A stretch of DNA of 64,000 nucleotides from Glutamicibacter creatinolyticus. Lineage in GTDB: Bacteria > Actinomycetota > Actinomycetes > Actinomycetales > Micrococcaceae. Positions 59,846 to 63,968 of the stretch are shown here, one piece after another. Position numbers and translations under genes: made by a program. The stretch covers positions 2,480,001-2,544,000 of the forward strand of contig NZ_CP034412.1 of the NCBI RefSeq assembly GCF_006094275.1, written 5' to 3'. The number at the start of each line of letters is the position of its first letter. Positions within the stretch are counted from its first letter, which is position 1. Under the pieces are notes generated by a model. That model made no database searches. It was not told where the DNA came from and saw nothing but the letters and a program-made list of their open reading frames with translations.

Positions 59846-62185
59846 CTATCCCCAGACCAGGCTCCAGGTCCCGGCCAGCACGGCGGCGGCCACCGCCAGC
59901 GCCCCCACCGCGAGCCCGGCACCGATCACCAGCACGTCACGCCCCCCGAAGTCCGGGGTGCGCAGCCAGCTGCGCCGCCCGGCGCCGAAGCCCTTGGCTT
60001 CCATGGTGATGGCCAGTCGCCCGGCCCGGCGGATCGCCTGCACCAGCAGGGCCAGCACCTGCCCCAGGTTCGCGCGCAGGCGCTGGGCCGGGGACCCGAA
60101 GTTCCCCACCCCGCGCGCCCGGCGGGCCAGGGTCAGGGTGGTGAACTCCTCCACCAGCAGGCCCAGCAGCCGCATCCCGGCCAGCGCCCCGAGCACGAAG
60201 CGGTGCGGCACGCGCAGCTGCTGGGACAGGGCCGAGCCCAGGTCGGAGGGGTTGGTGGTGCTCAGCAGCAGCACCATCGGCACGGCCATCGCCATGGCGC
60301 GCATGCCGGTGGCGATGCCCCCGGCCAGGGAGCCCTCGGTGATGGTGAAGACCCCCAGGTCCAGCAGCAGCGCCCCGGAATCCTCCCCGACCAGGCTGAT
60401 CCCCCAGGCGGCGGTCAGCCCGGCCAGCAGCAGCGGCCAGGCGCGCAGCAGGAAACGTGGGATGCTCAGCCGCGCCAGCGGCAGCATCAGCAGGGTCGCG
60501 GTGATCACCACCAGGCCCGAGACCCAGTCAATGGTGGCCACCAGCGGGATGGTGGTGGCCACGATCGCCGCCAGCTTCGCCAGCGGGTTGCGCCGGGCCA
60601 GCCAGCTGTCGCCCACCGCGGATCCCAGCAGCGGGTCCGGCCCGGCGGCCTCGGCCCGCGGGGCGGGGGCCTGCAGCTCGAGTTCCCGGGCGCCCAACGC
60701 CCGGGCGAAGTGCCCGTCGTGGGTCACCGCGATCACGGCGGTGCCCTGCTCAATCACCTCGATGAGCAGCTCGGCCACCTCCCGCCAGGTGTTCGCGTCC
60801 TGCCCGAAGGTCGGCTCATCCAGGATCAGCACGTCCGGGCTGGCGGCCAACACCGTGGCCACCGAGAGCCGACGCTTCTCCCCGCCCGAGAGCGTGTACG
60901 GGTTCGCCTCGGCCAGGTGGTCCAACCGCAGCCGGGTCAGCAGCGCGGCGGTGCGTTCGGCGATCTGCTGTTCATCAAGCCCGGTGCCGCCCTGCCCATC
61001 CCGTTCCCCCTTCGCCCGGCGCGGCCCGTAGGCCAGCTCGTCGGCAACGCTCTGGGTGACAAACTGGTGTTCGGGTTCCTGGAAGACCGTGCCGATGCGG
61101 GCCACCAGCTGCCCGGCCCGCCAGAGGAACGGCTTGTCCCCCGCCTCACCGGCCAACAGTTCAGTGGCGTGCAACCGGCCGCTGGCCGGCTCCAGCAGCC
61201 CGCCCAGGGTCAGCGCCAGGGTCGACTTGCCCACCCCGTTCGCGCCGCGGATCACCAGTGCGCCGCCGGCGGGCAGTTCCAGGTCCACCGCCGCGGTCAA
61301 CGGGGCCTTCTTTGAACGCCTGGCCTGCAGCGCGCTGGCCCGCAGCAGGCCACCGCCCGGGCTGGTGCGTGGGGTACGGGTGTGCGGGACGTAGCCGGGC
61401 ACCCAGATCCCGGCCTCGGCCAGCTCCCGGCGCAGCGGCTGGTCGCTCAGCAGCGCCTGCGGGGCCACGTCGTGGCTGATCCCGCCGCCGGGCTCCAGCA
61501 CCAGCACCCGGTCCACGTGTTCCACCCAGGTCTCCACCCGGTGCTCGACCACGATCAGGGTCGCTGCCGTGCGCTCGGCGGCGTTGAGCACCGCGTCGCG
61601 TACCCCCAACGCGCCCTCCGGGTCAATGTTGGCGGTGGGTTCATCCAGCAGCATCAGCCCCGGGCGCATGGCCAGGATCCCGGCCAGGGCCAGGCGCTGC
61701 TTCTGTCCCCCGGACAGCTGCTGGGTGGGGTGTTCCGGCGCCAGCTGGCCCAACCCGACCGCCTCCAGTGCCAGGGGAATGCGCCGGGAAATCTCCTGCG
61801 GGTCCACCCCGAGGTTTTCCGCCCCGAAGGCCACGTCGTCCTCCACCCGGGCCTGCACGATCTGGGTTTCCGGGTCCTGCTGCATCAGGCCCACACCCTG
61901 GCGCGGCCCGAACGCGTCCTGCTCCCCCACCAGCAGCTGCCCGGTGCACCCGGCCAGCTCGGAAACGTCCAGGACCCCGGCCATGGCGTGCAGCAGCGTG
62001 GATTTGCCCGCGCCGCTGGGTCCCAGCAGCAGCACCCGCTGCCCGGCCGGAACCTCCAGATCCAGGGCGTGCAGGGCCGGTTGCTGACGGTCGGCGTGCT
62101 TCCAGCCGAACCCGCGCGCGCTCACGGACAGGGCACCGGATTCCAGCTGGGGCAGCGCGGCGTGGTTCGTGATGCCGGCGGTCAT
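59846..62185 (-). CDS. ECF transporter energizer: two ATPase domains fused to EcfT
   Basis: A 779-residue fusion of EcfA, EcfA' and EcfT. The first ATPase has GPSGAGKSTLL (about 55-65), LSGGQKQRLAL and LLDEPTANID. The second has GANGVGKSTLAL (about 312-323), LSGGEKRRLSV and ILDEPTFGQD. From about 525 an EcfT membrane part follows, ending with the coupling motifs ARRARG and MEAKGF. In Bacillus the homologous YkoD (fused ATPases) and YkoC (T) are separate. The ATG overlaps the ykoE1 stop by 4 bases. Powers uptake by YkoE subunits, probably of the thiamin precursor HMP. Confidence 0.93.
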   Translation of the reverse strand: MTAGITNHAALPQLESGALSVSARGFGWKHADRQQPALHALDLEVPAGQRVLLLGPSGAGKSTLLHAMAGVLDVSELAGCTGQLLVGEQDAFGPRQGVGLMQQDPETQIVQARVEDDVAFGAENLGVDPQEISRRIPLALEAVGLGQLAPEHPTQQLSGGQKQRLALAGILAMRPGLMLLDEPTANIDPEGALGVRDAVLNAAERTAATLIVVEHRVETWVEHVDRVLVLEPGGGISHDVAPQALLSDQPLRRELAEAGIWVPGYVPHTRTPRTSPGGGLLRASALQARRSKKAPLTAAVDLELPAGGALVIRGANGVGKSTLALTLGGLLEPASGRLHATELLAGEAGDKPFLWRAGQLVARIGTVFQEPEHQFVTQSVADELAYGPRRAKGERDGQGGTGLDEQQIAERTAALLTRLRLDHLAEANPYTLSGGEKRRLSVATVLAASPDVLILDEPTFGQDANTWREVAELLIEVIEQGTAVIAVTHDGHFARALGARELELQAPAPRAEAAGPDPLLGSAVGDSWLARRNPLAKLAAIVATTIPLVATIDWVSGLVVITATLLMLPLARLSIPRFLLRAWPLLLAGLTAAWGISLVGEDSGALLLDLGVFTITEGSLAGGIATGMRAMAMAVPMVLLLSTTNPSDLGSALSQQLRVPHRFVLGALAGMRLLGLLVEEFTTLTLARRARGVGNFGSPAQRLRANLGQVLALLVQAIRRAGRLAITMEAKGFGAGRRSWLRTPDFGGRDVLVIGAGLAVGALAVAAAVLAGTWSLVWG

Positions 62186-62805
62186 TGCTTCGCCCGCCCA
62201 AAGACCGGTTCACGGTTCGCCCTGCGGCTGGGCAGCGCGGAAAGCGCCCCGGTGGCCGCCAGCGCGCGGGTGGCGAAGTAGGACAGGATGCCGGCAATCA
62301 CCAGGCCGGAGAGGCTCATCGCCGCCACGTGGAAAAGCTTCATGCCCGCGGTGTATTCCGCATAGTAGGCCATCAGGTAGGCCTCGCTTAGCGCACCGAA
62401 CAGTCCGGCGCCCAACCCCGCCAGCATCGCCACCCCAAGGCTCCACACCCGGTAGCGGAAGAGCGCGAACACCACCTCGGCGCCCAGCCCCTGGACAATG
62501 CCGGAAACCAGCACGGTGATGCCCCACTGCGAGCCCAGCAGCGCGGAGATCACAGCGGCCAGCAGTTCACAGTACAGGGCGGCGCCGGGCTTGCGGATGA
62601 TCAGGGCCCCGAGCACTGCCGGGAAGAGCCACATCCCGGCCACGAAGGCGCTAGCCGGCGGGAAGGCCACAAAGGCCAGGGAAATGAAGCCGTAACCGGC
62701 GTTCCAGCCCCAGAACACCACGCCCGAAGCCACGGCGATCACCGAGGCGACGACGATGTCGGCGACCTTCCACGAGCTGCTGGCCCGCAACGGTGTTGTT
62801 GTCAC
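62182..62805 (-). CDS. ykoE: Thiamin/HMP ECF transporter substrate subunit YkoE (copy 1)
   Basis: A 207-residue membrane S-component with about six helices: VVASVIAVASGVVFWGWNAGYGF near the start and YRVWSLGVAMLAGLGAGLFG in the middle, as in YkoE proteins. The GTG 62805 has AGGAGG with ideal spacing and lies behind a TPP riboswitch. Its stop overlaps the energizer start. A near copy lies at 63130-63750. Confidence 0.92.
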   Translation of the reverse strand: MTTTPLRASSSWKVADIVVASVIAVASGVVFWGWNAGYGFISLAFVAFPPASAFVAGMWLFPAVLGALIIRKPGAALYCELLAAVISALLGSQWGITVLVSGIVQGLGAEVVFALFRYRVWSLGVAMLAGLGAGLFGALSEAYLMAYYAEYTAGMKLFHVAAMSLSGLVIAGILSYFATRALAATGALSALPSRRANREPVFGRAKQ

Positions 62806-62813
62806 TTGAATAT

Positions 62814-62830
62814 CCTCCTGAATCAGGAGG
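62814..62830 (-). promoter_or_regulatory. Shine-Dalgarno-hiding hairpin before ykoE1
   Basis: CCTCCTGAATCAGGAGG: the anti-SD CCTCC faces the AGGAGG binding site, so this stem would block translation. It is the probable expression platform of the TPP riboswitch. Confidence 0.75.
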
Positions 62831-62875
62831 GGAGCATGTATGCGAACCGGGGCGCGTCCCCGGGGGCATACCTGA

Positions 62876-63018
62876 GATTCTCGACTTCCTTCGCCGGTAC
62901 TAGCCGGGGCAGGTTCGAGGGTCTGCGATCTATCGCACTCTCAGCGTCTTTTACCCTTACGCCTGCCGTGACGCGCCTGGCGGCACGGCAGCGGGCTGGT
63001 ATGACGCTCCCCTGTCGG
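62876..63018 (-). ncRNA. TPP riboswitch (THI element) controlling ykoE1
   Basis: On the minus strand the conserved blocks occur in order: ACAGGGGAGC, GACGCTGAGAGTGCG, GACCCTCGAACCTG, a CCGGCTAGTACCGG stem, and GCGAAGGAAGTC. These match the thiamin pyrophosphate aptamer consensus (GGGGNGC, CUGAGA, ACCCUNGAACCUG, CCAGCGNAGGGA-like). The optional P3 insert is about 60 bases long. TPP binding is expected to reduce ykoE-energizer expression. Confidence 0.93.
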
Positions 63019-63129
63019 TTTATGTCTGCGTTGCCACCATACCCCAGGATGCCGGTCGGGCAGAACCCGCACCGGCGACCGGTTTGAGGCGGACGTCATA
63101 TTGCTCTTGCTCCCGCCGCCAGGCGCCGC

Positions 63130-63750
63130 CTAGCGGGAGCGGGTGAGCACCGGTTCCCGGTGGGCCCGGCGGCTGGGCAGGGAGGCCAAGGCACCGGTGT
63201 TGGCCAGCATGCGGGTGAGGAAGAACGAGCAGATCCCGGCGATCAGCAACCCGGAGACGCTCATCGCCGCCACATGAAACAGCTTCATCCCGGGGGTATA
63301 GTGCACGAAGTGGGCGGTGATGTACGCACCGTTGAGGGCGCTAAGGAAGCCGGAGCAGAAACCGGCCAGCATGGCGGCGGACAGGTTCCACACCCGGTAA
63401 CGCAAGAGCGCGAACACCAGCTCGGCGCCCAGCCCCTGCAGCAGCCCGGAGACCAGCACCGTCAGTCCCCAGTGGGTGCCCAGCAGGGCCTCGATGATGG
63501 CGGCCAGCAGTTCGCAGTACAGTGCCGCACCGGGCTTGCGAATGATCAACGCCCCGAGGACCGCGGGGAACAGCCACATGCCCGAGAGCAGCGCGCTGGC
63601 CGGCGGGAACGCGGCGAAGGCCAGCGTCACGAAACCGTAACTGGCGCTCCACGCCCAGAACACCACGCCCGAAGCCACGGCGATGACCGAGGCGATCACG
63701 ATGTCCGCGACCTTCCATGAGGTGCCGCCGGTTCGCTTGGTTGTTGCCAT
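63130..63750 (-). CDS. ykoE: Thiamin/HMP ECF transporter substrate subunit YkoE (copy 2)
   Basis: A 206-residue paralogue of the upstream YkoE, with the same helices and almost identical blocks, such as SWKVADIV, VASGVVFW and FPPASA. ATG 63750 has AGGAGG nine bases upstream; the open frame to 63819 covers the riboswitch and is not used. It has its own TPP riboswitch but no energizer immediately downstream, and probably shares that of copy 1. Confidence 0.92.
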   Translation of the reverse strand: MATTKRTGGTSWKVADIVIASVIAVASGVVFWAWSASYGFVTLAFAAFPPASALLSGMWLFPAVLGALIIRKPGAALYCELLAAIIEALLGTHWGLTVLVSGLLQGLGAELVFALLRYRVWNLSAAMLAGFCSGFLSALNGAYITAHFVHYTPGMKLFHVAAMSVSGLLIAGICSFFLTRMLANTGALASLPSRRAHREPVLTRSR

Positions 63751-63760
63751 TTTCTTCCAT

Positions 63761-63777
63761 CCTCCTGGTTCAGGAGG
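63761..63777 (-). promoter_or_regulatory. Shine-Dalgarno-hiding hairpin before ykoE2
   Basis: CCTCCTGGTTCAGGAGG pairs CCTCCTG with CAGGAGG, hiding the ribosome binding site of ykoE2, as in copy 1. Confidence 0.75.
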
Positions 63778-63821
63778 GGAGCACATGCGGATGCGCAGGG
63801 AGCTGTCCCTGCCGCACATCT

Positions 63822-63968
63822 GAGATTCTCGACTTCCTTCGCCGGTACTAGCCGGAGCAGGTTCGAGGGTCTGCGATCTATCGCACTCTCAGCGTCTTCC
63901 ACCGGTCCCGGCCACCGGCGTTTGCTGCGCGGTGAGCCTCGGGGACGGTATGACGCTCCCCTGTCGTT
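63822..63968 (-). ncRNA. TPP riboswitch (THI element) controlling ykoE2
   Basis: The same conserved blocks as the first riboswitch, nearly base for base in the core: ACAGGGGAGC, GACGCTGAGAGTGCG, GACCCTCGAACCTG, CCGGCTAGTACCGG and GAAGGAAGTC. The optional P3 insert differs in sequence, showing that the copies have diverged there while the core is kept. Confidence 0.93.

Follow-up and report, generated by a model that had tools for sequence, protein, structure and literature searches.

Tandem TPP riboswitch-ykoE units with two diverging S components beside one fused YkoDC module in Glutamicibacter creatinolyticus

What use would a cell have for two copies of YkoE, the S component of an energy-coupling factor (ECF) transporter, each behind its own thiamine pyrophosphate (TPP) riboswitch, in an operon with one energy module? 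The question is raised by a 64-kb stretch of the Glutamicibacter creatinolyticus genome (the window; contig NZ_CP034412.1, positions 2,480,001 to 2,544,000), on which Pfam, Rfam, and open reading frame (ORF) calls were made. On the minus strand, which carries all features of the unit, lie in order TPP riboswitch B, ykoE-B, TPP riboswitch A, ykoE-A, and a fused YkoD-YkoC ORF, with copy B distal and copy A proximal to the fused ORF (Table 1). The reading we prefer, and to which we give about an even chance, is that two diverging S components feed one ECF module, each under its own switch that masks the Shine-Dalgarno (SD) sequence. Each copy encodes an intact S component of thiamine/pyrimidine type, and the two would share the fused YkoDC encoded behind copy A. 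What is new here is that the copies differ at positions aligned to thiamine contacts, with copy B sharing three derived states with 13 congeners that carry Glu77, although the species belongs to the other half of the genus.

The genome forms a single 3.31-Mb contig, in which a whole-genome search returned two PF09819 matches, both in the tandem unit, and a profile search of the ykoE operon found one YkoDC, a single polypeptide with two ATP-binding cassette (ABC) ATPase domains and a CbiQ-type T component. Against solved structures, ykoE-A matched 5edl_A at an E-value of 1.7e-28; no NCBIfam model matched ykoE-A or ykoE-B.

Table 1. Features of the tandem unit, in minus-strand order, with window coordinates
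Feature	Position	Strand	Basis
TPP riboswitch B (aptamer) with a long insert in P3	63817..63972	-	RF00059, 60.1 bits; P3 region 64 nt
SD-masking hairpin, leader B	63761..63777	-	Computed folds
ykoE-B, 206 aa, ATG start, S component	63130..63750	-	PF09819, 142.3 bits (scored range 9 bases longer at 5' end)
Promoter-like TATGGT motif upstream of riboswitch A	63036..63041	-	Conserved upstream of ykoE in genus
TPP riboswitch A (aptamer), between ykoE-B and ykoE-A	62869..63023	-	RF00059, 57.4 bits; P3 region 63 nt
SD-masking hairpin, leader A	62814..62830	-	Computed folds
ykoE-A, 207 aa, GTG start, S component	62182..62805	-	PF09819, 142.7 bits
Fused YkoD-YkoC, 779-aa ORF, 4-nt overlap with ykoE-A stop	59846..62185	-	PF00005 (2 stretches) and PF02361

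The two riboswitches and their leaders

As a preliminary description of this DNA had proposed, two TPP riboswitches stand in the same direction about 950 bases apart (949 bases, 63972 versus 63023), each followed by a hairpin that hides the SD sequence and by an open YkoE gene. Both score above the RF00059 gathering threshold (54.3 bits) and cover model positions 1-105, and at gathering threshold they are the only Rfam matches in the window. Riboswitch B reached only 43.7 bits, across 103 bases, in the whole-genome search, which returned five TPP riboswitch matches, four of them scoring there above gathering.

Without the P3 insert, the two aptamers differ by one mismatch in 96 positions. A leader alignment of 17 single-copy relatives shows the aptamer core to be almost invariant in all 17, so that the likeness of A and B reflects constraint and says little on age; the idea that nearly identical aptamers mark a recent duplication was rejected on this ground, and the earlier use of the same likeness as a sign of antiquity carries little weight. 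The P3 inserts (49 and 50 nt) do differ in sequence, as had been described, each folding computationally as a hairpin, and in A and B the P3 region has about double the length seen in the relatives (26-33 nt in 17/17). Leaders A and B also both contain AATCTCAG and TGCTCCCC, where the relatives differ. A promoter-like motif pattern is present for both copies and for 16/17 relatives, with leader B extending beyond the window edge (L037) and its motif sitting just past that edge. A scan for the sigma-70 consensus returned no promoter for either copy and did not pick up the TATGGT motif, a search for a T-run terminator between the ykoE copies found none and its scan no terminator-like site, and a hairpin at the ykoE-B stop hardly beats shuffled sequences (22 of 200 shuffles as good).

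In computed folds of both leaders, a CCUCCUG-CAGGAGG hairpin covers the SD sequence. Binding of TPP would fold the aptamer and allow CCUCCUG to mask the AGGAGG SD sequence, turning translation off in each leader, and in its absence the aptamer 5' segment AGGGGAGC could pair with GCUCCCCU, loosening the masking hairpin. In the folding model, the mean SD unpaired probability is 0.001 (A) and 0.002 (B) when the aptamer helices are enforced, and 0.435 (A) and 0.448 (B) when the AGGGGAGC:GCUCCCCU pairing is enforced, with the enforced aptamer state lying 6.6 (A) and 4.4 (B) kcal/mol above the alternative, ligand energy excluded. As computed, both leaders have an ordinary translational OFF design and would be expected to act as such switches. 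The suggestion that the pair lies under one signal holds in that both aptamer cores are of the TPP type, and fails in that each gene has a separate switch with a promoter-like motif of its own.

Contiguous tandem TPP riboswitches, as described in excerpts of PMC9481103 and PMC12452182, likewise pair two complete TPP riboswitches of the same orientation. However, in those excerpts both switches precede a single ORF or lie within one intergenic region, whereas here the 621-base ykoE-B intervenes and every switch comes with a gene and promoter-like motif of its own; a tandem contiguous riboswitch is defined by a shared leader that holds two switches ahead of one gene, which is not what is seen at this locus.

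Origin of the duplication and tandem pairs elsewhere

YkoE-A and YkoE-B are identical at 148 of 206 positions (72%). By the Nei-Gojobori method the pair has a nonsynonymous divergence (dN) of 0.19, a synonymous divergence (dS) of 0.80, and a dN/dS of ~0.24, dS values being rough here given GC-rich third positions and many pairs near saturation. Both ORFs are intact, both genes are constrained, and a recent neutral duplicate was rejected on dS. Nonetheless the event is, in the sample, confined to one lineage, as all 17 other genomes of the genus hold a single ykoE and the two copies are sisters; the preliminary description, which had seen an old duplication kept under selection, was right that the pair is not fresh. 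Of the marks of a recent neutral event that it named, single copies in relatives were found, and near-zero synonymous divergence and a decayed gene were not. The genus, family, and order genomes are a sample that may lack near-identical records, and for family and order it was taken from larger groups. Within this sample, nine of 395 Micrococcaceae genomes (this one included) have two ykoE matches, namely this pair, six whose copies lie far apart, and two in which one gene was read in two pieces, and the tandem riboswitch-ykoE unit occurs in 1/395.

Copies A and B are sisters with support of 98/99 (protein), 97/96 (codon positions 1+2), 100/99 (all nucleotides), 98/97 and 96/95 (gene halves), and 98 with sites 27, 77, and 83 dropped (Shimodaira-Hasegawa-like approximate likelihood ratio test, SH-aLRT, only). 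An rpoB tree of 18 rows splits the genus between the 13 Glu77 species and a group (100/100) made up of the window species and the four Ser77 congeners. In it the nearest congener of the window species is G007 (95/96), with a single ykoE. The grouping of the window species with G007 is absent from the ykoE trees, and a YkoDC tree (SH-aLRT 82), in which the congener rows are fragments of about 500 residues, differs from rpoB in placing the window outside the 17 congeners. Given the sister relation, the single copies of all 17 congeners, and the derived leader features that A and B share, the promoter-like motif, riboswitch, and gene were duplicated in tandem together, in this lineage and, on our preferred reading, after its split from those congeners.

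The two pocket types also admit an older origin, in which a Ser/Glu duplication at the base of the genus was followed by differential loss in relatives, with conversion making A and B look sister. Each window copy does have one of the two types found singly in relatives, and in two 25-codon windows around site 77 copy B is slightly nearer to G017 and G003 (0.79-0.83) than to copy A (0.75-0.76), although in the same windows it is equally near the Ser-type G007 (0.81). By the approximately unbiased (AU) test, a grouping of B with the 13-species Glu clade is unrejected by the protein (p = 0.113) or the gene halves (p = 0.089 and 0.079), but it is rejected by codon positions 1+2 (p = 0.041) and all nucleotides (p = 0.007), as is a placement of B outside A and the 17 congeners (p = 0.006 for protein, 0.002 for nucleotides). 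Moreover, A and B are sister in every partition tried and share derived leader features, and the rpoB tree would require about three losses; we consider this origin improbable. The windows around site 77 likewise give weak hints only of a segment imported into B from the Glu77 clade.

Pairing of S components is recurrent in the order, as at least nine other genomes of an order-level sample of 396 (G627, G696, G461, G448, G604, G584, G444, G556, and G746) have tandem ykoE, defined as two same-strand genes starting within 1 kb. Positions were examined for 79 of 86 further multi-copy genomes, with G562, G634, G648, G671, G694, G702, and G710 left out of the listing; the copies of G648 and G671 are far apart or on different contigs. 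A TPP riboswitch precedes the first gene in eight of the nine pairs (five above gathering score, three below), and none lies between the copies in any of the nine at an E-value of 0.1, on which a riboswitch between tandem ykoE genes was rejected as the usual arrangement. Partners in these pairs are 39-61% identical, compared with 72% here, and, as here, differ from one another at contact positions (e.g. W49 to Y49, Q95 to V95 or E95). Duplication of the switch along with the gene marks the present case in the sample, and a tandem ykoE with duplicated riboswitch is not named in the titles or abstract openings of the open-licence literature searched. A link between tandem ykoE and loss of thiC was unsupported, eight of the nine tandem genomes lacking a thiC match compared with 37 of 51 chosen others (Fisher p = 0.43), where the 14 others counted as thiC-positive include G751, with a broken thiC. 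A non-tandem way to two switch-gene units is seen in G652 (C23, L175:3151-6792), where a gap of about 2.3 kb separates a pair of ykoE genes that face each other, both having a TPP riboswitch of their own.

Contact positions in the two copies

In B. subtilis YkoE, thiamine is contacted by W49, E77, and Q95 at the pyrimidine, and by Y46 and D131 at the thiazole (PMC5037267, in excerpt). Mapped by alignment in this numbering, the corresponding residues are A46, W49, S77, Q95, and E131 in YkoE-A, and S46, W49, E77, Q95, and G131 in YkoE-B, such that W49 and Q95 are kept in both copies, E77 is found in B only, and an acid at 131 in A only. Among the single-copy congeners 13/17 have E77 and 4/17 S77, the latter also occurring in 41 of 43 other aligned rows, and all 17 have E131.

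The 13-species clade has six fixed states that none of the four Ser77 congeners, and no more than 4 of 43 other rows, carry; copy B has three of these (27S, 77E, and 83H) and copy A none, A having kept the Ser77/Gln83 type found on its side of the genus. As rpoB places the window species with the Ser77 congeners, the three states of B sit in the wrong half of the genus. Site 77 has changed at least three times on the YkoE tree, and its codons, TCC in A and GAG in B, differ at all three bases. H83 occurs in 15/16 Glu77 rows and 0/46 Ser77 rows, indicating that sites 77 and 83 tend to change together. Copy B has the Glu77/His83/Ser27 type, the sole YkoE type of 13 congeners, and no longer carries the acid at the thiazole-contact position 131, which A retained. 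The contacts that each copy keeps suggest that B leans to the pyrimidine moiety (hydroxymethylpyrimidine, HMP, or similar) and A to whole thiamine. These differences, with the parallel states of B at 27, 77, and 83, lend indirect, sequence-level support to the earlier suggestion of two substrates or affinities.

Copy B could instead be a decaying or non-transport copy, uncoupled from YkoDC and sequestering substrate only, or on its way out. Its branch is longer (0.48 compared with 0.11 for A), copy A separates ykoE-B from ykoDC, and B has more unique replacements in 10/10 relative-rate comparisons (14-27 compared with 7-15 for A), with mixed significance (chi-square above 3.84 with five of ten outgroups). 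Pairwise dS is larger for B than for A against 12 of 17 congeners and dN/dS is not clearly raised in B, so its longer branch is not solely amino-acid change. Against decay, the ORF of B is full-length with a family score equal to that of A (Table 1), the pair has the dN/dS of ~0.24 given above, the riboswitch is intact, and W49 and Q95 are kept. A failing copy B is, in our view, very improbable.

Thiamine supply and the reach of the locus

A profile search found no thiC match in this genome, compared with matches in 15/18 genomes of the genus; the other two without a match (G003 and G017) are drafts of 30-40 contigs, neither with a second ykoE. Within the genus, T82 of copy B is common only to these two genomes, a suggestive link with the missing thiC match that rests on two events. 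Two operons, both with a TPP riboswitch at their head, encode the thiamine enzymes that did match: ThiO, ThiG, and ThiF in the first, and ThiM, ThiE, and a ThiD/TenA fusion in the second. With no thiC match and the thiazole branch kept, the organism is predicted to be a pyrimidine auxotroph, for which imported pyrimidine or thiamine would be essential. The gene set fits the pattern of genomes lacking only ThiC, which excerpts of PMC6593275 score as requiring B1 or HMP, and the same excerpts annotate YkoEDC as an HMP transporter and, as YkoEDC2, a thiamine transporter.

About 35 nt after thiM-thiE-thiD/TenA lies a gene for an NCS2-type nucleobase permease (L164:5103-6392, minus strand, genome C1 ~49.1-50.4 kb), which matches PF00860 and exceeds the TIGR00801 cut-off but falls below those of RutG and the uracil permease, and is a candidate for a second route by which the thiamine pyrimidine enters. 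Elsewhere (L163:143-2445, plus strand, genome C1:249129), a TPP riboswitch precedes genes for a short-chain dehydrogenase and a luciferase-like monooxygenase (PF00296), neither to our knowledge a recognised thi gene, which possibly encode a step of vitamer salvage or breakdown.

The main rival to a split of substrates is dosage, in which equal S components are kept for greater substrate capture in a cell without thiC and the pocket differences are tolerated drift; we regard this as possible, if on the unlikely side. It is favoured by the missing thiC match, and by the Ser77 and Glu77 types each serving congeners as the only YkoE, from which both pocket types are functional. Additionally, excerpts of PMC5037267 report that E77A, D131A, Q95A, and Y46A reduce thiamine binding by B. 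subtilis YkoE only 2-5 fold, so S77 or G131 alone need not alter the substrate. Against dosage, B has three parallel replacements, one of them across all three bases of a codon, and lacks the acid at 131 that A and all 17 congeners kept, and neither of the other congeners lacking a thiC match has a second copy.

Alongside these small mutant effects, the incongruent G007 grouping, the unrejected trees, and the rates described above, several further observations weigh against two diverging S components feeding one module under separate switches. In the unconstrained ensemble the SD sequence is mostly paired (unpaired probability 0.087 in A and 0.083 in B), and the alternative helix has a probability of 0.70 in A but only 0.29 in B. 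The NCS2-type permease in the thiM-thiE-thiD operon means that YkoE-B need not be the HMP route. Finally, thiamine pyrophosphokinase (TPK; PF04263, the one thiamine kinase family searched) was unmatched in 18/18 genomes of the genus, all with YkoE, which leaves the use of imported thiamine and its route to TPP unexplained.

Group II ECF modules are those in which many S components share one energy module. The present locus would resemble them in having several S components per energy module, though unlike them it holds two paralogues of one group I S component. With B. subtilis YkoEDC (PDB 5EDL; PMC5037267, in excerpt) it shares a PF09819 S component, a CbiQ T component, two ABC domains, a THI box leader, and conserved W49 and Q95, but here YkoD and YkoC are fused and the contact positions are unlike between copies. 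YkoDC-matching ORFs are 781-799 residues long in 6/6 named congener loci, and 548-557 residues in three Citricoccus/Micrococcus loci.

A fuller version of our preferred reading, which we think rather unlikely, is that a group I module has become a group II-like one with two S components, in which thiC is gone and a second pocket type (27S/77E/83H, without the acid at 131) arose in B, in parallel with the Glu77 half of the genus, to serve free pyrimidine. Copy A would keep thiamine, and a separate TPP switch would tune either copy. If so, sites 27, 77, and 83 would form a specificity switch between HMP-type and thiamine-type YkoE. If instead the copies prove equal, the locus would be an ordinary dosage duplication. 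Whether YkoEDC carries HMP, thiamine, or both is currently deduced in genome surveys from pathway gaps. As the two natural pocket types occur here in one cell, alongside one energy module and with differences at a few named sites, specificity may be tested with two proteins rather than across distant species. The locus would also let the sharing of S components by a group I ECF module be put to the test.

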